From Centroberyx gerrardi (Eukaryota; Chordata; Actinopteri; Beryciformes; Berycidae), in the NCBI RefSeq assembly GCF_048128805.1, contig NC_135997.1, forward strand, positions 9,489,116 to 9,553,115: a DNA stretch of 64,000 bases. The letters are read 5' to 3'. A program made the translations under genes and the position numbers. Below the pieces are notes generated by a model. The model saw only the letters and a list, made by a program, of their open reading frames with translations, was not told where the DNA came from and made no database searches. Every line of letters begins with the position of its first letter. Position 1 is the first letter of the stretch. Below, piece after piece: positions 723-47,025 of the stretch.

Positions 723-18642
<17,920 letters not shown>

Positions 18643-18975: not shown

Positions 18976-19682
18976 AACTCAGAATGAAGGAGGTAGAGTC
19001 GGGCGCGCACACATGCACATGCGTGGTCGCGCACGTACCCAATGGGCTATATGTGGGTAAGAAAAAAATGTTTGGGGGGATGTTGCAGTTATGGATCCTA
19101 ACGTTATTTATTAGATTCTCCTATTTTCAATAAACACAACACTGGCTACAATTGTGCTGCACGTGTTTATTATTCCATAGGCTATATCATCAGATTTAGC
19201 CTACTGATAAAAATATGAACCCTTGTTGCTAAATGGAAGGAAAATTATAACTGCGGATGCGTTCATTTTAGAGAAAATCCCCACTAATTTTCCATTGACA
19301 ATTATTTTTTTTTATATTATGAACAATCAAACAAAATGCACAAATTTACATTACAAATGTTCAAAAACGACTGATTAAGTTGGAAAAGATCAACTATAAC
19401 CTACAGTAAAGTTATTGGCGATAAAACCTTGAAAACGTCCTCTATAACACCCTCAAGTAATTCAAATCAATAAAGTAAGTTTGTTTCTATATATATGTGA
19501 GGGAACGAATTGGGGTCATGATTAATTCAATGTGTAATTCTCTATAAATTATAGAGAAGTTGTGTTTTTTCTCGTTGACTGCTTGTGAACACTAGAGGGC
19601 GACATAATGCATTTCCCTCCTCATCCTGAAGGGGGCGGAAAGTCGCACACCGGTCGCCTATTTAACTCTGGAAGCTCCGTTT
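18976..19682. promoter_or_regulatory. Head-to-head intergenic region between tanc1 and the tpt1-derived gene
   Basis: About 0.7 kb separates the inferred tanc1 leader (minus) from the first exon of the tpt1-derived transcript (plus). It has a CpG-rich patch near 18995-19040, a GC box-like GGGGGCGG near 19631-19638 and a TATA-like TATTTAA at 19659-19665. The middle is AT-rich and I see no coding potential. Shared regulation is an inference from the geometry only. Confidence 0.4.
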
Positions 19683-19694
19683 CCTCGTTCTTTC
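19659..19694 (+). promoter_or_regulatory. TATA-like box and TOP-like initiator of the tpt1-derived gene
   Basis: TATTTAA at 19659-19665 is followed 18-31 bp later by a pyrimidine-rich start (TTCCTCGTTCTTTCACC, 19681-19697). This layout matches 5'TOP genes, the translational-apparatus and snoRNA-host class to which TPT1 belongs. The exact start site cannot be fixed without transcript ends. Confidence 0.5.
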
Positions 19695-20267
19695 ACCAGG
19701 AGAACTTAGTCTAGGAAGGATCGACAGCCATCGTCTCTCAAAAGTAACATCGAAAACGTTGTAATTCGGTCATCTTTAACGACATGATCACTTGTAAGTA
19801 TATCATGTCGACCTGCCTCGCCTTACTATGATAACAGAAGTGCAATCTTAAGACTCAAATCTGTTCATGTGTAGACCTAGTGTCACAGGAAGGGCCTCCT
19901 TGCTACCGTTGGTGTTCCTGCTAGCTAACGTTAATGCTAACTAAACTAAATGCTAAGTAAACCAGTCATGATAAGTGTCCCAATACCACGGTTTTGGGGT
20001 GTTAATTGAAATTGGTGCGTTTTGTAGAGACACTCGTAATTAACCACTTAAAGCTAGGTAACGTTAATCGTTAAGTTATGGGGCATTTCGTCGAAAAATA
20101 ACTTTTGCTAGGTGTTAATTTCTCTAAATATTCTCACTTTAGCCTTGAATTCTCTCGATATTGCATTATACTGCTTTATCTTAAGTATTCAGCAAGTTGT
20201 TCACTACTACTCTGATAAACTGTAAGAGTAGGAGGCAATCTTTTAATATTTAAGAATTGATATTAGT

Positions 20268-20340
20268 GCTGCAGCTATGAATCATTATAATTTTCGAATA
20301 ATTCTTGGATTTTATAGCAGATATTTGAGTAATCTATATA
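20268..20340. mobile_element. Fragment of a hAT-like MITE
   Basis: AGTGCTGCAGCTATGAATCATTATAATTTTCGAATAATTC resembles, in part, the end of the element at 16328-16661 and common fish hAT MITE ends. Only one terminus is recognisable. It lies in intron 1 of the tpt1-derived gene. Confidence 0.4.
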
Positions 20341-20861
20341 AAACACAATATGGCAGTTTTGCTCACATAACAGTGTAGCAAATATTGCGCTGGACAGTTC
20401 TCCCAGTCTTCAGAGCACAAGTATGTGGACAGACTGATGATCCTTAGGAAGCAAACTCTCTTCACATTTCAAGCCGTGAAGAGAGCTGCTATTCATTCTG
20501 TTATGTAGGTACAGTACTCCAATAAAGGCTAACCTATTTCTCTTGCACGTTCCTTGTTTCTAGGTGATCATATGCCATTTGGTGGAGGCTTTTATCAGCA
20601 GGATGGAGGATGATGGCTGTGCATCAGCAGAAGATCCGGGTGATAATGGTGCTGATGTTACCTCAGTCTGCCGTGTCGGTATAGTCACTGACAAATGGCT
20701 GCAAGAAACCAGCTCCAACCAGAAGAGCTATAACGTATACTGATCTACATCAAATCATGGGTGAAAATGTGAGTAAAGGTGACAGAAGCAGTTTAGTTTG
20801 TGAAAAAAATATGTTTCGTTATTGAACTGAATGTTGGACCAAGCCTTGAACCCAATGACAT

Positions 20862-20997
20862 GCTGCATCTTTGACAGCCTGGGCCTTCTGATGTGGGGAA
20901 CCTCGGGTTTTATTATTACAGATGCAATATTAACATCCCTGCGCTTTCTGCCCGCTTATTTTCCATGGCGTCTCGGATTGAATAGGGGATGACAAAT
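20862..20997 (+). ncRNA. snora31: H/ACA box snoRNA, SNORA31-like, copy 1
   Basis: It lies in intron 2 of the tpt1-derived gene. The 5' hairpin closes with TGCATCT (20864-20870) pairing AGATGCA (20920-20926). Box H ATATTA (ANANNA) is at 20927-20932. The 3' hairpin closes with CATCCC (20934-20939) pairing GGGATG (20986-20991), followed at once by ACA at 20992-20994. All hallmarks and spacings of an H/ACA pseudouridylation guide are present. SNORA31 is known from TPT1 introns, and the 3' pocket shares GCGCTTTCTG and GATTGAAT with the second copy. The family name rests on host and shared motifs, not on an alignment. Confidence 0.82.
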
Positions 20998-21316
20998 GAA
21001 AGCAATGTTTTAATGTCATTAACTTGGGGCTCCCAATAATCTTCTGCTTTTCTCATTACATTAGTTGTTACTATCTCAAGACACTTGCAGGGTGTCTGCT
21101 AAAATGGGCTTAAATGTGACGTTTGTCTCTTCTCCTTCCAGTGTCAAGGTTGAAGTTGGAGGAGGTGAAACCAGGAAGCAGAGGAATTTGCAGACGCTGC
21201 ACCAGACTCAGTCAAGCAAGTGTTGGACAAAAGTGATGCTTTGCAGGTGAGCAATGAGCATTAACTCATTCCTAGTATCATTCGTAGCGTTGTCTTTACT
21301 TGATGTAGATTTAAAT

Positions 21317-21448
21317 CTGCATCCACTGATAGACCTGAAGCAGGTTACCTTGGCTTTTAGGTTTGCATAGAGATGCTAAATTGAACTTTCCTCGCGCTTT
21401 CTGACTGCCACATTACATGGTGGCCCAGATTGAATTGAGGAATATATT
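21317..21448 (+). ncRNA. snora31: H/ACA box snoRNA, SNORA31-like, copy 2
   Basis: It lies in intron 3 of the same host. The 5' hairpin closes with GCATC (21319-21323) and GATGC (21372-21376). The 3' hairpin closes with TTCCTC (21388-21393) and GAGGAA (21437-21442), with an inner stem GCCAC/GTGGC. The guide-pocket motifs GCGCTTTCTG and GATTGAAT are shared with copy 1 at equivalent places. The tail box is ATA (21444-21446) rather than ACA, and the hinge (TAAATTGAA) is not a perfect ANANNA. The 5' hairpin differs from that of copy 1, so the two may differ in one target. It is either a functional variant or a decaying paralogue. Confidence 0.7.
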
Positions 21449-22355
21449 TAAACCCATTGAGTGACAATTTTGAAATTAATTGCTGTTCAGAGCAAAGTCT
21501 AATCTACATAGGAACTTTTCTAGTGTGTGACTACTAAAGGGTGTATCCCTTTTTATAAACTAAATCACATTAAGTGGAAAAAGGTTTGTTAGATCTGCTT
21601 GCTAGAAATAAGCATTACACTAAAGTATACTGACTCACTCTAGGGTAGAAGTTTTGTCAGTTCAGCTTTACCACCCATCATGGCAGCCATTACAAAACCC
21701 TGAAGCAGCTCTTAACTTGCAGCAAGAAAGATGACAGAATTTCTTCCTCAGGAAACATAATTCATCACTGTTCGTCTTTTATTTCCACCCCCTCAAACAT
21801 TATCGGTTGTGGTTGCTGGGTATTTGGTTTGTGCTGTCACCGAGGAGATGCACCCACATTCTTCAACCGAAAGTCATATTTGCTTATTTAATAGGCAGAT
21901 TTTAAAAGTATTTTGTCCATCTACTTGGGACGTGTCTGGTTTAGATCTGGAAGTACAAAACTTCCATTTGTTGCAGGATGATGATTTGTTATGTGTTTGC
22001 ATGCTGTGTGGCTCTTTGCTGTGTTCTACTAAATAGTGGACTGACCCTTGTTCCCATCTCCTTCCAGGGAATAATCAAGAATGCTGGAAAGGCGTCATTC
22101 AGACACATTTTGCCCACTGGACAGACTGTGGACCTTAACATTCAGACCTGGGGAACAGCTGTTTGCCTGTTAAGAAGTTTGTTTGTTTTTTGTTTTGTAG
22201 TCCAGATAAACACACAATCTTGTTTTTCTGTTTGTCACTTTGACCCTCTGGGAAGAAATCTGGATGCTGGCATGTTGAACTTGCTGTGCATGTCATATGT
22301 GTAAATTGGCACCCTTACTGTCTTTAAAGAAATAAATGGGCCATTGGCTGAAACA

Positions 22356-24159: not shown

Positions 24160-25937
24160 CTACTCGTCAGTCTTTTCCTCGCCTTGGTAGTGTCTGTACT
24201 CTGGCCTGAGTTCCCAGGTGTTCTTGTGAGTTCCCTTCACATTGTAGATGCCGATGTCACGCAGGATTTCCTTCAAGTAAATCTAGAAGAGATAAAAAGG
24301 ACCGTTTGTAAGGAATGTCAAATTCACTGCTCTTGTTCTGTCAAAAAGCAAGAGACAATGTACTGTATGTTTATGAGCAACAGAAGCCTTTTGACTTGAA
24401 TAGTCAATGGACAGAAATAAGTTATTACACATTAACATATGTCTGCAAGTTTCAAATTAGATTGAAGACTTTTTAAGACCATATCAATGCCTGTTAGAAT
24501 GAAACAAGACCAATTTCATGATTGAAACTTTCAACCTATCAGAATATAGCTCTGATTTCTCACCAGAAAAAGCAGTGCACCAAGAAATCTGAACATTTTT
24601 AAGACCTCTAATCCTTTATTTAATTGTATTCAAGACCTTTTAAGGCTTTGAGTTTAGATTATATACTTTAAGACATTAAGACATTTTCAGGACCTGCAAA
24701 TACCCAATTAAGGAAAATGTATATACTTGGAAATCGGTATCTCTATGAAAATGAGTTCTTCTTGCGTTAAGTTATCTGTAGTCTTATGCAACAGACGCAG
24801 CCCATGGCCTGATTCACTCAAAATGACCCAGATCTGATGGCTTTTTCTGTGTTTAGCCAGCAATGTTCATCAGATTTTCTCCTCCTGTGTAAATCCCAAC
24901 TTCATCATTGTAAAAGTAACATTATATCTGATAACCGAACCATCTGTTGCCCAGTAGCCTTACCACAGGCTGTTTGGTGATATCCACCAGGTCTTTGATG
25001 TTGTAGTATTGGTGCTTCTCAAAAGCGGAAAACAACATGTCCAACACTTGCTGTTTGTCGGCTCTTGCTCTCTTGCCCTCCTCCTTCTTTTTCCTGTCAT
25101 ACTCGAGCTACAGAAAAGCAAATAGACAAAAGTCCGTCATCATACACAGTGTAAACTTAGGGTGAATACATGCCCAGGTACACCGATGCACAATGTTGCA
25201 TGTGTGGGCTACATTTTGTACAGACTAGAAAAATAACTGCTAGGTGAGTTATGAAACAAGACATAGACAGTCATGCTTGTTTTCTTACATTGTAAGCATG
25301 GTTGGCCACAGGTTTGTAGTTGTTGGTGACAGCCTTGTCCAACTGTTGAGACAGCCTGACAGGCTTGGAGGACTCTTCGATTTGTATCCTGTCACATAAG
25401 CAGAATCACTTTACTTGCTGAGTACAATACAGGAGTTTTCCATACTAACACACATGGAACGATGACATTCAGTTTTTGATGGTTAGATGGTACAAAGCTT
25501 TTAGGACCGAGTGAAAGCCGAACCTTCCACTGAAGCCAATTTCTATCTTTGGGGAACAAACATCCAGTGTTGGAGTTTCGGCAACCAGCAACAATGGAGA
25601 CATGGAGATTTTGGCTACTTTGACATGTAGCTGGCTATTGTCTTACAGACTATGGGGCACCTCATTAACTATGCATACTGATGACCAATCAGAACATTCA
25701 TTAAAACCTGGGTGTAGGTGGCATCATTTACACCAGGAAGTAGACTGGAATTCTAAATCAGTTTGATCCATCATCAGGACATTAGTCAGATTTCCACAAT
25801 TCTGACAGTTATAATAATTTGGGTAACTTTACATTAACAGGTCCTTTGTTAAATTATTTCATGAAATTGAGAAATGCAATTCTCTTTGCACTGGATCCTT
25901 GAGACCTTCACATACAGTCCCAGACATACATGTATAT

Positions 25938-25974
<37 letters not shown>

Positions 25975-28900
25975 CATATATATATGTATATATCCAACAT
26001 TACAAACAGCATATAAATATTTTGGTATAGATACAAAAATTGTGTGTGTGTACTGTTTCACTGAGCGCTCACCTCTTCAGCTTCATATAGTTTTCACTGA
26101 CAGCAGGTCTGCATTCTGCTCTCTGTACCACCACTCCCTCCAAGGCTAATTTATCTAAAGAAGAGAGTTAATCAAACTGTCAGTCCAAACTAAATAACTT
26201 CATGTGTTCCCATGCATTTGCAGTGCATGTTTATTTCATAGGTAAGAAGGGGTGTGTGGGTGCATGTGTGTAAGAGAGAAGGCAAGAAAACAGACACACA
26301 GAACAAACCGGATCCACCCTAAATCCACCCTAAAAACAGAATTTAATTGTGCTATTCAAATGATTCTGGTTCAATCCAGTCAATAGACATGAAGCTTTCT
26401 CCCAAAGCTGGAAACCAGAGAAAAAGATTTGAGCAATCATGATGCTGATGATGTCCATTTTTCCCCCTTAATCAGAAATTGCAACTGCACTCATATCTGA
26501 TATCACTACAGATAGTTACAAGTAAACTATATGTTACCATGTTTATTGTAGGCTTCTTCTGTGGATTCCCTCTTTTGATTGATCGCTCTTTATAAGTCAA
26601 TTATGGTTTCAGCTTTCTGGTGGCAGCAGTCCACGCTGCAAGTCCACTTTAAGTAAACAAAATGAACGAGTCTGATGGCGACGATGGTTATTAAGTTGTG
26701 GACCCAAGAATGGTGATTTGTCTCACGCACACACACAAAAGCTTAATTAGTGCAGTTGTTGGCCATAATATTAACCCAAATACCAGGAGAAGAATAAATA
26801 AATAAAATACCACCCAGGGAACTTGTCCATAATGTCCACCAACATGCTCCCCTATTCATTGTCAAGAGAAGACTAGAGTATTAGCTCTGTTACTTCTAGC
26901 TTTGGGAGAAGCTTGCTTATGTACATTGTACATAAATCTAAACCAATGTTTCCAAGAACATAATAACATTCTTTAGGGCAGATTATTTATACAAGTTTGC
27001 TGCTAATCATTGAGTCGGATCTGCATTCTCTTCACCAACACCACATCACAACTGGCCTGGCCTTCCAAACAAATAGCACTCCATCCATCACCGCCAGCAA
27101 GATGCAATTCTGGATCCCGTTTGACCGCAGTCCCACCACCTTTCCATCCTCCACTGGAGACGGTGGAAACGAAGTATTGAAGCTCCAAATGGAAATTCAC
27201 ACATTTTCCCAAAGAGACAAGAGGCCTTAGCTCTGCTTCAGGGCAAAGTTGGCCACCTATATGGATCGGCGTCTAGGGTTTCGGTGCCAAGACAAGCACC
27301 TACCAAGGCATGTATACTGGGTAGTTTAACCAAAAAAGTAAACTATTGAAAAATATTTTTTTAAAAAGACTCTCGTCCTGTATGATTCCCAGTGATGCAG
27401 CTCTGTGACTCACTGGGGATAGAGACGGAGGACTCACCTGGACCTGCCCCTGCCCCCGAACCTGAGCAGCTGCCATCAGATCTCTCTTCTGACTGGCCTA
27501 CAGGGAGGGAGGGAGGGAGGGAGGGATGGTGAAATGAAAATACAGGGGTGGAAGACGGAGGGGAGGAGGAGGGGATCGAACAGTAAGAACCACACCCAGG
27601 GTTTAGTTGGCCCTCAAGTCTCAGACCAAACAATTAATGACACAGAGAGCTTCTCAGTGTATTCACCTCTTATGAGCACACAAGCGTGCATATGAGCAAG
27701 CAAGCATGCGCTCACACAACAAGCGAGCACAGATACACCCCCCCCCACCACCACCCACCCACACAGCAGGGCTGCACGATATTGAAAGAAAACAAAAAAT
27801 ATGAATCTTCTGCTGAATACTATAATTACAATATGAATTGTGATACATGTGGACAGATTTGTCTATATACTTTTGTTTTTTTAGCACACACACAATACAC
27901 AATTAGATGCTAGTGGTTGTTATGTGTGATTTGTATGTTATTGAAGATTTTCTCCAGTTTCAATTTGATTTGTAAACTGGGGATTCTGCACAACATGTTT
28001 ATGTAGCCGTCTGTAACACTTTTTCCTCTGATATAAAAACGCAGCCTTTTGCAATTTGGAAAATGCAGCAGTGAATATATCTCTCTCTCTCTTCCAACTA
28101 TTGCATTTTATATACTGTATCATTATTATGTGCAATCATGTCAAAAAGAGATTTTTAATCTCAAGGGAATCAAAATACCTATACTATGCAGCCCTAACAC
28201 ACACACACACACACACACACACACCTTAAATGGTGTCCCACTGTGAGCACAGTAGCACAAGCTCACCAGCACCCATAACGAAAAAAGACCTACATTACAA
28301 TCGAAGGGCAGACCAAGTTGGTGAAATTCAAACCAAACAAACCCATGCACAAATTAAAGCAACTCCACATTCAGCAAGATTTGTGTTGATTGATAAGTCT
28401 ATGTTAATGAGTCCCAAATCACAAAATATCCCGAGTGTTTGCACCACTGTCTCTGATCATATACCCACTCTGCTGAGCTGATTGGCAGTGGACTGAAAAG
28501 TGCAAACCACAAACAAATGATTGATAGAGAAACAAACAAAAAAATGAAAAGAAATAGTCACTTGTCTATGCGACAGTAGAAATAAGATAAAAGACAACCA
28601 GATTAGCTGATCAGTAGTATGGGATGTGAAAAAGGCACAATGAAAAGAGAAGCAAGGAAACATGTAGTGTATGTAGAGAGAAGAGCAGGTTGGGGATGAG
28701 TGAAGACAAATATCCAACGTGCCAATTCTCCTCCCTTTCGCCTTGAATGTTCACTTATCCACTACATACATGTCTTATGCATATTCTCTTAGGGTAGAGG
28801 ACAAAAACACACTCTAGGGAAAAGCTACTGAGAGTTTAAAACACACAGACAAGCAGGGCAAGGGAAAGACTGTGCATGACGACAGGAAGCTGCACACCAA

Positions 28901-31210
28901 GTAGCAGGATGAGCGCCTCCACCACCTGATCACACAGAGAACTTACCCTTAGGCTGTTCTACAAATAGATATCACACATCACAGATAACCATTAATTCAG
29001 TTAATGGATCGTTGGGTTATTAGAAAGCCTCATCCTGCAGCAGGGGCATTCAAAACAGGCAATTTTAGCACTTGGCCGTTTTTGTCCGACTCGGCTCAAA
29101 GACGTGCAGAAGCTCACCTGACGAAGTCTCGGTGAAGACTGCCAACGTCTGACCTCCCACTGTCTGCATGGTGAACGGGTGCTCACGAGGCGCACGCACC
29201 GATTTGTCTCCAATACCCTCAATCACAGTCAGCTCTTCGTTCAAAGTGAAAGACACCTGTAAAGAGCAGCGTCATCCAAGACTTAGTTACTTTAGCCAGT
29301 TTCCTTATTTTTGGTCTTACTGCCATTTTCCTGTGTCTAGAGTATGTATAAAGCAAGTAGAGTATAAACAGTGGATTCAAAAACACAGGCATTTGAGCAA
29401 TACCTGACACATACTGTGAGCTCTAAATGTATTTGTAAAGTGACACATTTTTTGGATGTTTTGGCCTCTCATTACTTTGGATGTGAAATCAGGTAATGAC
29501 TAACAAACTGTCAGTTTGACTTGGGGTACTTTCAGTCATATCAGAAGAACAGTTAATGAACATAAGTCTTTAGCCTATTTGTACAGCCCCCTCTCCCTAA
29601 ATCTGACATGGCATTCTAATTATTAGAATGCCATCTCTGGATTATTCTCTGCCATATACAGATTATCTAAGAATCTAATAACCTGTGTATTATGGGTGTA
29701 TTACATCATATGCATTGTTATCATAAATTATGCAAGTTTCAGAGTATTACATATCCAACCAAACAGATGCAGAAGGTAACTTAACCCTTTTAGCCCACTC
29801 ACACTCAGCAAAGAGTTTTTTTAACCCTCACTAAAGCTGTCCATCCCTTTGCTAGACTGCAAGCAGTGGACAGTGACAAGCAAGAGAGCGAGACATGACA
29901 TCCCATCGAAGCTGTGAGTATGACTCCAACCCAGAACGTTGCAAGTCCATGCGATACCTCTACCACCAGATGCACTGTGATTTTTTTGCGTTTCATTTAC
30001 CTCTGCTTTTCCTTGGTTTCTGAAAGAAATGACAGATAAACAAATAATTAGCAAGCTAGTTATCGTACCAATCAGAAGCTCTTTATTGTCAAGAATACCA
30101 GTAGTACACAGCAATGCCTAGTGCATAAGAGTAATAGCAACATTTACAAGGTAACAGAAATCAGCCTGTATAACTATCTAGTTAACCAAATGTATTTCTT
30201 CCAGTCTTTGAAAGCATACTTTATCAGCACATACTATATTTCCATTTTTTCCATTTCCCCTTCCAATACTCACGTTTTGTGTACGGATAACATAACTAGC
30301 TTGCACATACTGAGAGACACATAAATAAAGTTAGCTTCTGGGTTTACATACTTGGAGATCCTGAGTTTCCCGACATCGCCTCTGCCACTTGCTTTTGCCC
30401 ATTGCTGAGAGAGATATTTGGGCACCTGCATAAAAAACATGGGTATATTTTACACAACGGGGGAACAAAGGGATGTCTTCCACATCTTGATAAAGGTTAT
30501 TAATGGTTCAGATGGAATACATCATTTATAAGCATTATTTTAAACAATGTTTGTCCCTTTCATATGAGGTCATTTCTGGCTGCCACTTCAAACTACATGT
30601 AAGATGAAAACACGGTAAAAAGGACTTAAAGCAAGCTGTTGTGATAAATTGTCTGTCAGAAACGGTGTGTGTCTACGTTCATTTGGACTTCGCCTACCAT
30701 TAGGAAAACTGGTTACTCTGGTATATATTGAATAACTTGGTCAATCAATTATCTACAAATGCACGTTAAATGAAGTTAATAATATGGTTAAGTCTTCTCA
30801 TTCCGTCTCTTGTCCTCACTTGCCATATACCTAACGTTACTGAGACCACATAACACATTGTTTTCATTTCTACAATAGCCAAACGGTGGTCTCTGAACTA
30901 ATAATTAACATGGTTATATTACGTCTGTTTAATGCGAGTGATACATAGCCTTTAAAGAAGATTTTAAGAGGCCCAATAACTTACTTAGCTACATAATTTA
31001 ACTAACAACGTACATTAGGGTATCTGGATTACTACTGTTAACATGCTAAGCTACGCTACAGTTAGCATTAGCTGTGGTATCCTGCTAAGTTAATGATAAT
31101 ATATATTCAGTTATAATAAGGTTGTTTATAAACATTATACACACCTTTACCAACCATACACCCGTGTTCTGCTTGGCACCAGTTAGGTCAACTTCTCCTT
31201 TCTCCGACAT
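24160..31210 (-). CDS. gtf2f2: gtf2f2, TFIIF beta subunit (RAP30), complete
   Basis: Encodes RAP30, which with RAP74 forms TFIIF, recruits RNA polymerase II to the preinitiation complex and aids start-site selection in the nucleus (family knowledge). Exons in transcript order: 31210-31145, 30425-30352, 30019-30001 (19 nt), 29256-29118, 26154-26073, 25388-25289, 25107-24964, 24282-24160. They join in phase to 248 residues, against 249 in human. Key blocks are MSEKGEVDLTGAKQNTGVWL, VPKYLSQQWAKA, SFTLNEEL, APREHPF, LEGVVVQRAECRP, and the winged-helix C-terminus QVLDMLFSAFEKHQYYN with LKEIL and NTWELRPEYRHY. An optional 60-nt exon may add 20 residues between exons 4 and 5 (see separate entry). 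An NRF1-like CGCATGCG lies upstream at 31276-31283. Confidence 0.96.
24450..24720. mobile_element. Degenerate MITE-like repeat with TTTTAAGACC words
   Basis: It carries several copies of (T)TTTAAGACC/ACATTTT and ends resembling a fish repeat family rich in this phrase. A related short piece appears at about 60440-60490. It lies in gtf2f2 intron 7. Termini are not well defined. Confidence 0.35.
25939..25991. repeat. CA/TA compound microsatellite
   Basis: ACACAC units run into ATATAT units, in gtf2f2 intron 5 about 80 bp downstream of the exon 5 donor (26073). Confidence 0.8.
27438..27497 (-). CDS. gtf2f2: Candidate 60-nt cassette exon of gtf2f2
   Basis: On the minus strand, a long pyrimidine tract and CTGTAG acceptor precede 27497, and a consensus CAG/GTGAGT donor follows 27438. 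The 60 nt keep phase 1 on both sides, so inclusion between exons 4 (29256-29118) and 5 (26154-26073) adds 20 residues beginning GQSEERSDGS and ending in a Gly/Ala run, with no stop. Skipping gives the ordinary DKLALEG junction. The insert would sit in a loop of the N-terminal dimerisation domain. I know of no domain match. It could be an alternative or fish-specific exon, or a chance ORF with good sites. Confidence 0.5.
27767..28196. mobile_element. hAT-like MITE, about 430 bp
   Basis: Ends are CAGGGCTGCACGATATTG and ACTATGCAGCCCTA (inverted). The interior is AT-rich and non-coding. It abuts an AC microsatellite at 28197-28223, so the target-site duplication cannot be read. It lies in the large gtf2f2 intron, beside the candidate cassette exon. 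Confidence 0.6.
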
Positions 31211-32742
31211 GTTTTAAAATAATGCCTTCTTCACACTTTACCGTTATCACAAGCGACGAAACCACAATACACACACGCATGCGTAGAGGGGGACCGGGAA
31301 ACTATGGTGGCTGTACAGGAACAAATCCACATCAGCGTTGCGTGTTTATTACAGTGGAAGTCGCCAGTAGCCTAGGGGTTGTCATGAAAGCTCAAACGCA
31401 TAGTAGTGAATGTCATTTGTGGCCTTTATCCGTTTTCGTAGTTTGAAACTGTACATGTCGGAAAAACAAGGTTTTCATCCACCAGTGACGATTTACTATT
31501 GGTTAGGTCTGGGGGCGATGGGCAGTTACCTCCACTAGTCAGTAGATGGTGCTATAAGCTCTGTGGATAAAAGCATGTATAGGCCTTAGCAGGATGCCTG
31601 AGTACGGTATAGCGATGCCTTGGGTCTTCTTTTGTTAAAGTAAAACTCTATGAACACTGATCAGTGATCAAAGTACAGCAGATAATCGATATGACAAAAC
31701 TCCACTTCCATTATCAAAATGAATGAAATCATGAATCTTTACTTGCTATACGCCTACTCTATGGATTTTGACAAAGAACTATATTTTTTAAGAGGTTGTT
31801 ACAGTGCATTTAGGTGAGTTTATCCTCCAAAATACTACTACCTAATAGCAACTAACATCATCATCTAAGTATGAATAACAACATGAGGAAAAGTATGTTT
31901 CAAAATACAATTTTATCAACTTTTAAAAAACAAAAAGTAGCAAAAGGAGCTTATGAAGACACAGAAGTAGATCACAAAGCTACACGGGGAACAGAGGGTG
32001 CATGCAGCCCAACAGTGTGTTTTCACAGCAGTCTGCACAACTTGTTTTCAAAGAAATCAAATATATCACTAAGGATTTCATTTTACAAGTAAGGGTTATG
32101 TTCCTATAAAGGCTTGAGGCATTAAAGGATGATGGTTTTTATGTAATGAATGTGATATGCTGAAGAGCAGTCAGGTGACAGAAAGGCGTGGTTTGGTTCA
32201 CTGATTACAGACACAAACATCTAACAAAGTGAGCCACCTGTAATGTGGCTAAAATGAATGGGAATCATTGACATGCTTCTTAATTCTTGGTCAAATCACA
32301 CATACCCAACATTTGAACATGCCAGGATTATCTGTTGACTCCCATTCATTTAATTTCTGTGATTCTTCTTCTGTGTATGTATTTTTGTATACACTGTCTC
32401 ACGGGAAGCTATATAAGATAAGCTATATCAGCAGTTTTCTTTCACATCAACATATAATTGTCTGAACCACTTTACAACATTTGCTGTAGGCATTAGGCTT
32501 AATGACATGATCTCCCACAAATGGATACATCTTACAAAAGTCTGACATGTCATAGTCTAATATTTAGCCCAATTTAGTTTAGCCCACAGCCAAACATTTC
32601 ACCCAATATTCCTTTTGTCTAACGAACCAGCGTGCATGGAAACACAGTCCATATTATACAAACCCTGGATAAAACTTTCACCCTCCAGACACTAACTGGG
32701 GGTCTGCACACTCCTGCAGGCTGCAGCCCTCCTGACAGTTAT
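31211..32742. other. Intergenic region: gtf2f2 promoter and gpalpp1 3' flank
   Basis: Near the gtf2f2 start lies an NRF1-like palindrome CGCATGCG (31276-31283), followed by GGGACCGGGAAACTATGG. The rest to 32742 is AT-rich without coding signal and should include the gpalpp1 3' UTR. I see no RNA gene or complete mobile element in it. Confidence 0.5.
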
Positions 32743-35700
32743 TTACAGGAACATGCGGTCCTTGCTGTGGGAGAAGCGTGTGTTCAGTTCTTGAGACTTC
32801 TTCAGCAGTCGCTGCTTCTGCGCTTCGTCGAAGCGGTTGACCTGCAGGTCGTTGTCCCGATCGAACGGCCTCCTCTCCACTGGCTGGTCGGACTTCTCCT
32901 CTGCCTTCTGCTTCATCTTTTTTGTGTGCAAAGTCATCAGGGACTCGGCGCGCTTGGAATCCTGACAAAAAGGATTGGGAAGTGATGTTTAAACAAGTCA
33001 TCACATTTTGTATTAATCATACATTAGGGATAATTAGGGCGAATTAATATCTATTTCGTGTTATAAGTTCATAAAAACATCCCATAATTGTATTTAAATG
33101 TATAATTCCAATATACACTACCAGTCAAAGGTTTGGACACATCTGATTGAATGTAATATGTTTTTCATTATCCATTTTGATCTAAAGGCTTATGCTGAAA
33201 TGCTTGAAATTTGTTTCTTAGACAAATATAAATAGTGAAGTTGATGCCTATGTATGAATTTCTTTCCAAAGCCTTTGCCTTCTCATCAAGGCAAAGGGTG
33301 TCTACTTTAAAGAATCTAAAATATAAGATAGTTTTGATTTGTTTAACACTTTTTTGGTCACTGCATAATTCCATTTGTGCTATTTCATAGTTTTGATGTC
33401 TTTACTATTATTCTATAAAATAGTAAAAATAAAGAAATATGTGGTGTGTCTAAACCTTTATCAGTATTTTGGACAGTAGCACCACTTACATTATACTTCG
33501 ACACCTTCTCTGCCATTGCCAAGTCCTTGTGGGACATTTCTGGGACGCTGTCTTTCTCCTTCTCATCCTTCTTCTTTCCCTCAAGGCGCTCCTGTTGGTC
33601 AAGAATAAAACCATGAGAGACAGGGAGTCAAACATACAAGATAGTTAAGAAGAAGTATAGAGACAGTTATTTTTTATTTATCAGTGGGTTGAGGTGTTCC
33701 TACCATGATCTTGCGCTCCCTGTCTGCGGGTGTATCTGTCCAAATGGAGCGGTCTTTGTTCTCTGGACCCGACTTCTTCTTGAAAGTGCGAGCCCCCAAG
33801 CCGATGTGCTGCAGCTCTGGTGGGAGCTCTGTCATCCACGTTTCTCTGGTCAGCACCTCGGGACCATCCTGTGGACAAGATACACACAGACACAAACACA
33901 CAGACACACATGGACACACACACACACACACAAGAGAGGGAGAATACTTTTTATTCCCTAGCTACATCTACATCCCCAGTGTTAGTCTGAGTTTACCAAA
34001 TCAAGACCTAAACCTAAATCAGCTATTCAGAAAAAAAAAGTGCCCTCTATCACAGAGGCAAACACTGATCATGGAAATGCTACCATGTCATAGAAAAGTC
34101 AAGGGATCTGATCACAAAAAAAGCATTGGAACATAGTTAGAGAGCAGAAGCCCTGTCAGGAAAATCAACTCTTTACCATGTAGTGAGTTGTCCTTTCTTC
34201 TCAAACTAATGCATAACATTGTTGAAATCTCACTAGCTAGACACACACATTTTGCACAACTACTGTTTGCATATCTTATTTATAGGTTCCTGCCGCTTTA
34301 CCTGTTTTTATACTTGCAGTTGCTCAACTTACTTTGTATTATACTTTGATATTTTCATTAACTTTTATTGTAAATATTTTGCTTGGATCTTCCTACTTTA
34401 TATTAGTGTTTTTATGTTTACTATCTACTTTTTTTTTGCTGTCTGTTTAACGCTATTATCGAGAAGGTCCGGAAGTAAGCATTTTATTGCAGCGTTTGTA
34501 CCATGTGTAAACTGTGCATATGACAAATAAACTTGAACTCACATCTGAGGTCAGCTTCTCCTTCATCCTTTGCGCCCTGCGCTCAAAGTCCTGAGCCACG
34601 GAGTCCTGAACAGAGTGTTTGGCCGGCATCGGTCCGATCACGTCCTCATCCTCTCCGTCACTGCTGGACGGCTCGGCCTGGTAGCCCGGCGGCAGGGCCG
34701 GCCCCGGGAACCCCTCTCCATCTTCATCATCGTTATCGTCGTCATCCGCTGCTCTGCGGAAGCCTGGAGGTAAGGCTGGGCCGAGCACAGGCGGCCTGAA
34801 GGAGGAAACACTGTGAAATTAAAGCTTCACAGGGCAAACTCTTTATCCAACCACTCATCCACAACAAGTTAATTTCATTTCTGATCATTCAGTGGAATAT
34901 GTCTGGCAGAGGGGGACTCGTCAGACTCGGGTCACAATTTTAATAGCTTGAGACTTGACTTTGACTTGTACTTTGATGACTTGAAAAGGTTTCTTAAGTC
35001 TTGACAAAAGATCTTGAGCATGTGTAAATGACTTAGATTGAAAGTGATGAGATGTGTTCCACCAGACGACTGAATTTAAATTCTGTTTTCTGAATTTGCA
35101 TGGAATGATTGAATTTACTGCAGTTGAGACGGATTATAGAAATCAAACTCATAATGCACTTACCAAGTTTTTATACTATTAAAACGAGATTGCATTGAAA
35201 AGTCCAAGATATTTTGTTTTCTTTAAGCTATCAAATTGATACTGGACTCTTGGTTTGTTTAGACTTGGGACATGACATTAATGACATGACTTGATAATCT
35301 ACATTTAGACTTGAGACTTGACTTGAGACTTGTGCCGATCTTGACTTGAAGACTTGAAACTGACTTGGTCAGACCTCTGATGTCTCGAGTTGTTTTGCTC
35401 ACCTCTCTGGTGAACTCTGTTGCTTCTTAAATCCTGGAGGCAGAGCTGGCCCGAAGAAGCCATCATCATCGTCATCATCGTCATCATCATCTTGCGCTTT
35501 CGTCTCCTCCTCCCTGCACAAACGACATTATGTTTAGTTGTGTGAACTTTTGTTTTCTTTTACTTCCAGAGTAATGAACCTACCTCTCCGCGGGTCCATC
35601 TCCAGCTGTATGCTTGGTCTTGGCTCTCTTGAACACCACCTCCTGCTCACTTTCATCCGAAGAACTCGACGGTTCTCCCCGTTTGTAACCGGGAGGCAGA

Positions 35701-36888: not shown

Positions 36889-47025
<10,137 letters not shown>

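Follow-up and report, generated by a model that had tools for sequence, protein, structure and literature searches.

What keeps a tpt1 gene in place once it can no longer encode its protein? The question is raised by a locus in the genome of Centroberyx gerrardi (assembly of 778.9 Mb in 278 contigs), where a broken tpt1 copy occupies positions 19690-22352 on the plus strand of the window, the stretch of 64,000 nucleotides analysed here (contig C1, 9489116-9553115); positions below are window coordinates unless a contig or locus is named. The broken copy has three introns, all bounded by GT-AG, and two of the three contain SNORA31-type RNAs. The elements of the locus are as follows, the downstream RNA being called the first and the upstream RNA the second.

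19101-20100, plus strand: promoter region with preserved CpG, highest CpG observed/expected ratio (0.96) among the 1000-base windows of the 64 kb
19659-19665, plus strand: TATA-like TATTTAA, 31 bases upstream of CTTTC
19690-19793, plus strand: predicted exon 1 with a short TOP-like start, CTTTC at 19690 (putative transcription start), and the old start codon at 19784-19786
20564-20768, plus strand: exon 3 remnant, possibly joined to the ends of exon 2 (shuffle alignment, PDB matches), TGA at 20741-20743
20863-20997, plus strand: second, SNORA31-like H/ACA RNA of the SNORA31B type with a guide for 28S alone; its H box reads AUAUUA, and ACA lies 3 nt before the end (Rfam 38 bits, guide, boxes)
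21142-21246, plus strand: exon 4 remnant with, in our reading, TCTP-like pieces in different frames (shuffle alignment, frames)
21317-21449, plus strand: SNORA31 H/ACA RNA with guides of the 18S-218 and 28S-3713 types (Rfam 85 bits, guides, fold)
22068-22352, plus strand: predicted last exon, AATAAA at 22331 (exon 5 alignment; putative 3' end)
24163-31213, minus strand: neighbouring GTF2F2, tail to tail with the broken tpt1 (protein-family and genome searches)

The promoter and processing signals described in an earlier note on this DNA, a TATA-like and TOP-like promoter, GT-AG introns and an AATAAA, were thus all found.

The same note had supposed that a second tpt1 copy took over the protein, and the genome does contain one. 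A genome search with TCTP returned two matches (all five candidates scored), both of them exons of one gene on the minus strand of contig C10 (25281426-25284115); the broken copy in the window was not listed by this search. The gene on C10, the only TCTP gene that the search found, has a full frame of 170 codons and GT-AG introns. Its coding exons of 28, 74, 185, 106 and 117 nt served as the reference for the broken copy, in which three codons remain upstream of intron 1, a single exon of 205 nt replaces exons 2 and 3 of the intact gene (259 nt in total, separated there by an intron of 1458 nt), and the exon 4 remnant measures 105 nt against 106 nt.

The remnants were assessed by local DNA alignment to the exons of the intact gene, with 1000 single-base shuffles per exon. 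For exon 3 none of the 1000 shuffles aligned as well, and on this alignment the identity of the remnant is certain; exon 4, equalled by 26 of 1000, is a likely remnant. The likeness to exon 1 was matched by 15 of 1000 shuffles, but it consists of 7 bases only. Exon 2 was not recognisable in the shuffle alignment (245/1000 as good) and is either missing or perhaps fused with exon 3 in the 205-nt exon; a firm claim of such a fusion was dropped because the likeness is not significant. The first bases of the exon at 20564-20768 resemble the start of exon 2 in our reading. In the last exon no TCTP C-terminus was recognisable, the match to exon 5 being equalled by 128 of 1000 shuffles. When the open frame 20564-20740 (59 residues) was compared with the PDB, all five sequences listed at E values up to 10 were TCTP chains (E 0.012 to 0.018), and TCTP was the sole Pfam family listed for it, under the cut-off (13.6 against 24.3 bits, E 0.084). 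With the open piece of exon 4 (26 amino acids) as query, TCTP was absent from the Pfam listing, which named two unrelated families, both under their cut-offs. TCTP pieces spread over different frames, and a stop at 20741, had been read from the letters alone, and both observations hold.

The predicted spliced RNA is 699 nt long. Its first ATG is the old start codon and opens a frame of 19 codons, and its longest ATG frame has 46 codons, starts at 20603 with the third ATG and ends at the TGA at 20741-20743; neither the ATG frames nor the Pfam search, in which the match stayed under the cut-off, revealed an open frame with a TCTP domain in the broken copy. Might the locus nevertheless still encode a small TCTP-derived protein, for example from the 46-codon frame? 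This frame is open, and in comparison with the intact gene its third codon positions differ more (25 of 39) than its first and second positions (27 of 78; P 0.003). The same pattern can, however, arise from constraint on either copy, that is, from past coding or from constraint on the live paralog alone. Since the frame also begins only after the 19-codon frame, and most of TCTP is absent, we regard a surviving small protein as very unlikely.

The first RNA is recognised by the Rfam covariance model of SNORA31 (RF00322) with 85 bits at a gathering score of 40, and is the sole Rfam match above cut-off within the window. The second RNA scored 38 bits (E 2.5e-4), under the cut-off, and is therefore termed SNORA31-like. 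A genome-wide SNORA31 search (42 of 49774 candidates scored) gave one match over the cut-off, the one in the window; it did not list the 38-bit copy, and additional weak copies may have escaped it. When searched as DNA, each RNA retrieved itself alone and failed to retrieve its partner, and diverged SNORA31 copies would therefore go undetected in such searches. In a direct alignment the two RNAs resemble each other, and none of 300 shuffles did as well. The first RNA folds more stably than nearly all shuffles (z -3.56, 1 of 200 as stable), the second moderately better than its shuffles (z -1.49, 15 of 200). Compared with the published box consensus, ANANNA for the H box and ACA (PMC10234308, seen in excerpt), the boxes of the first RNA are each one base off (AAAUUG and AUA), and those of the second, AUAUUA and ACA, are perfect. 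Of the two structured H/ACA snoRNAs announced from the first inspection, the first scores well above the family cut-off, and the second falls just under it with a modest fold.

Guide strings were picked from the folds and the 14-nt rule, with the published targets known beforehand, and were scanned against every U in two loci holding parts of 28S and 18S rRNA (L029 and L030, both of which score as partial or diverged); a candidate U was counted where each guide arm pairs at least 3 bases. The 3' pocket of the first RNA had 12 candidates, with a best score of 14.5 on the 28S rRNA and a next best of 6.5. That of the second RNA also had 12, and its best (13.5, next 6.5) was the same 28S U. The pairing comprises 14 Watson-Crick pairs and one G-U pair in the first RNA and 13 and one in the second, at a distance of 14 nt to the box in both. 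For the 5' pocket of the first RNA there was a single candidate, an 18S U with a score of 10.5 (10 Watson-Crick pairs and one G-U); no 18S guide was seen by eye in the second RNA. We take these 28S and 18S positions to be the human sites 28S-3713 and 18S-218. The 28S copy in L029 (1085-2430; C10 near 32.24 Mb) is diverged or partial, scores 246.8 bits over model positions 1891-3399 and contains the one exact match to a 28S 20-mer.

The intact gene presents the opposite picture. No SNORA31 was found with Rfam in 10 kb around the C10 tpt1 at E values up to 5, nor in its intron 3 when this was searched alone. A weak likeness of intron 3 to the second snoRNA (L003 5743-5828, minus strand), at nearly the same intron offset, was equalled by 23 of 300 shuffles. 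It is not taken as a SNORA31 relic and may be due to chance: the non-corresponding pairing of the first snoRNA with intron 1 was better (6/300), among 20 comparisons, and Rfam recorded no SNORA31 in intron 3. When introns of the two copies were aligned with each other (12 pairs, 100 shuffles each), the one pair that beat all shuffles was again non-corresponding, and for the corresponding pair of third introns 7 of 100 shuffles did better.

Selection on the snoRNAs, as already proposed in the earlier note, is the natural reading of these results, because structure and guides have been kept in the broken copy while the intact gene is without detectable SNORA31. Provided that the ancestral gene carried SNORA31, the live copy demonstrates that tpt1 introns can lose this RNA when it is unneeded. 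A total of 40 guide bases in the dead copy (26 from the first RNA and 14 from the second, G-U counted) have retained their pairing. Had these bases drifted as far as the first and second codon positions of the dead exon (27/78), the probability of finding all 40 preserved would be near 4e-8; assigning only half of the divergence to the window copy raises it to about 2e-4. This arithmetic is rough, as exon and snoRNA histories may differ and the targets were known when the pockets were picked. The constraint argument as a whole draws on a single genome, the intact paralog and what has been published for human and chicken.

These data also bear on the simplest alternative, that the whole locus is a decaying pseudogene, with snoRNAs that are passive leftovers and no transcription. 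In its favour, exon 3, too, is still recognisable, which means that decay is incomplete; the first snoRNA has off-consensus boxes, and no 18S guide was seen in the second. Passive decay does not readily explain why both RNAs can still pair with 28S rRNA and the first also with 18S rRNA, nor why SNORA31 is undetectable in the intact paralog, and it is further opposed by splice signals equal to or better than those of the live gene and by the peak of the CpG ratio at the promoter. We consider it improbable.

Preserved CpG is the trace of a promoter that is unmethylated in the germ line. In windows of 300 bases the CpG observed/expected ratio ranged from 0.53 to 1.08 between 18901 and 20250, and from 0.0 to 0.53 between 20101 and the end of the gene. 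The promoter ranked first among windows of 600 bases (1.04), as it did among those of 1000 bases, and second among windows of 400 bases (1.08, after 1.26 at 38801). On a coarser scan with 212 windows of 600 bases, three reached the value of 0.89 obtained when centring on the start (median 0.37). Other high-CpG windows include the 5' end of GTF2F2 (0.79) and places not assigned to a promoter. The stretch with the top ratio of the 400-base windows, 38801-39200 (14 CpG), has ERCC3-like exons on either side in our reading. Around the first exons of the intact tpt1 the ratio was 0.91 and 1.03 in 300-base windows.

The splice signals of the broken copy are intact as well. At donor positions +3 to +6 its introns match the consensus at 4, 4 and 3 of 4 bases, compared with 2, 3, 4, 2 and 4 in the intact gene; among the 3714 GT sites of the window a score of 4 occurs in 0.9% and a score of at least 3 in 12%. 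The acceptor tracts contain 80 to 90% pyrimidine, versus 55 to 85% in the live gene. Taken together, the CpG ratio, the donor and acceptor scores and the spacing from TATTTAA to CTTTC suggest that promoter and splicing were maintained while the reading frame decayed. The promoter CpG ratio and the intact splice signals thus lend indirect support to continued transcription of the broken tpt1. The snoRNAs would then be carried in GT-AG introns, predicted to be spliced, of a gene whose first-ATG frame comprises 19 codons and which has no long frame.

The neighbourhood indicates how the two copies arose. A genome search with GTF2F2 gave four matches (all ten candidates scored), two exons at each of two loci, and each GTF2F2 locus lies tail to tail with one tpt1; this is the only neighbour gene shared. 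GTF2F2 is a neighbour of TPT1 in humans as well. Of the two neighbours named in the earlier note, GTF2F2 was recognised as the next gene; GPALPP1 remains a reading of a frame with GPALPP repeats (34456-34818) for which no Pfam family was found. The two GTF2F2 copies share 179 of 257 residues over the aligned exons and differ at 31 of 67 fourfold sites. The shared tail-to-tail arrangement with GTF2F2 and the divergence of the GTF2F2 copies mark the pair as the product of an old block duplication, whose obvious and most likely source would be the whole-genome duplication of teleosts. The GTF2F2 copies with open exons extend over about 7 kb in the window (24163-31213) and over C10:25243687-25279501, where the exons form two groups about 30 kb apart. 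Two further stretches of the window, 33098-33401 and 37848-38323, match C10 near 25214.9 kb and 25234.8 kb in several frames and on both strands, a pattern to be expected of a repeat or of conserved non-coding sequence.

A duplication alone does not give the direction of change. The window copy could have gained SNORA31 afterwards instead of C10 losing it, the loss of the protein being unrelated, and snoRNAs can indeed move between introns (PMC3511168, in excerpt). SNORA31 is, however, located in TPT1 in humans, and two RNAs of the ACA31 type occupy successive introns of one host in the chicken; the ancestral tpt1 therefore most likely had SNORA31-type RNAs, and a later gain is highly improbable.

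We thus favour reciprocal loss after duplication, which would have turned the window copy into a non-coding snoRNA host, and assign this reading a probability of roughly 0.8. The ancestral tpt1 would have encoded TCTP and housed two intronic RNAs of the SNORA31 type. It would have been duplicated together with GTF2F2, most likely in the teleost whole-genome duplication, and the copies would have suffered opposite losses, the C10 copy keeping the protein and losing the snoRNAs, the window copy keeping the snoRNAs and losing the protein. As a non-coding host the window copy would have a promoter that still fires and a transcript that is still spliced; H/ACA proteins would bind and trim both RNAs from the excised introns, with the exons serving as packaging, and the released RNAs would guide pseudouridylation of 28S rRNA (human 3713) and 18S rRNA (human 218). 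Since the 19-codon and the 46-codon frames both end before the last two exon junctions, nonsense-mediated decay probably eliminates the spliced RNA, as it does with GAS5. Transcription, processing, rRNA modification and decay, as well as how old the duplication is and which loss came first, are points that we infer from the genomic data. Against this reading stand the off-consensus boxes of the 85-bit RNA, the score of the second RNA under the cut-off, its moderate fold and the fact that no 18S guide was seen in it, and an order of the two RNAs opposite to that in the chicken.

The two jobs of one ancestral tpt1 seem to be split between its copies. It is likely that complementary degeneration divided the protein and the intronic snoRNAs between duplicates on two chromosomes, and the divided pair has possibly been kept across many teleosts. 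If this is true, the birth of a non-coding snoRNA host gene is visible within one genome. The origin of such hosts is an old question, and to our knowledge their coding ancestors, if there were any, are usually beyond recognition. Here a dead exon is readable, the genome also contains the sister gene for the protein, and the losses appear to be reciprocal; the route through duplication and complementary loss is therefore directly testable in fishes. Annotation may class a snoRNA host of this kind as a mere pseudogene. In the open-licence PMC literature searched, no prior report of a split between tpt1 protein and snoRNAs was found; a survey of TCTP describes paralogs in mammals and none in other vertebrates, and does not contain the word "fish" (PMC7202613).

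The comparisons with known systems below are based on excerpts of the papers cited. Human SNORA31 is hosted by TPT1 and assigned to 18S-218 and 28S-3713 (PMC6466398, PMC3766210), the assignment of 28S Ψ3713 being given in a further paper as well (PMC9941101). Host family, snoRNA family and assigned rRNA targets are therefore the same as at the window locus. Human TPT1, however, combines the protein and SNORA31 in one gene, whereas here they reside on separate duplicates and the host is unable to code for TCTP. The chicken provides the closer parallel for the pair of RNAs. One chicken RNA of 128 nt has both targets, 18S-209 (listed under ACA28/ACA31) and 28S-3223 (ACA31), and a second of 134 nt has 28S-3223 only; both come from a single host defined by ESTs (introns 5 and 6), which is not named TPT1 in the excerpt (PMC2653536). 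The 134-nt RNA is listed as SNORA31B in a later paper (PMC3349704). The division of targets equals that of the window pair, one RNA with both and one with 28S only, but the dual-target RNA occupies the earlier of the two introns in the chicken and the later one in the window copy.

With the non-coding snoRNA hosts (SNHGs) the broken tpt1 shares intronic snoRNAs and poorly kept exons, and the decay predicted here is stated for GAS5, a non-coding host described as subject to nonsense-mediated decay (PMC11405852, PMC10234308). Unlike in SNHGs, the coding ancestor of the window host is still legible and a sister gene in the same genome has kept the protein. The lncRNA fossils of protein-coding genes (PMC5577775) likewise represent coding genes turned non-coding. 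The term "snoRNA" is absent from the main text of that paper, whereas the retained intronic RNAs of the window locus offer a reason for its survival. The closest precedent found is MYH14/miR-499 in teleosts, where an intronic RNA has outlived its host after duplication and gene losses: miR-499 is expressed in medaka though its host MYH14 is absent from the medaka genome (PMC3716903). In that case the survivor is a microRNA, whereas at the window locus an H/ACA pair has been kept together with exon remnants, promoter and splice sites, and the sister copy shows the opposite loss.
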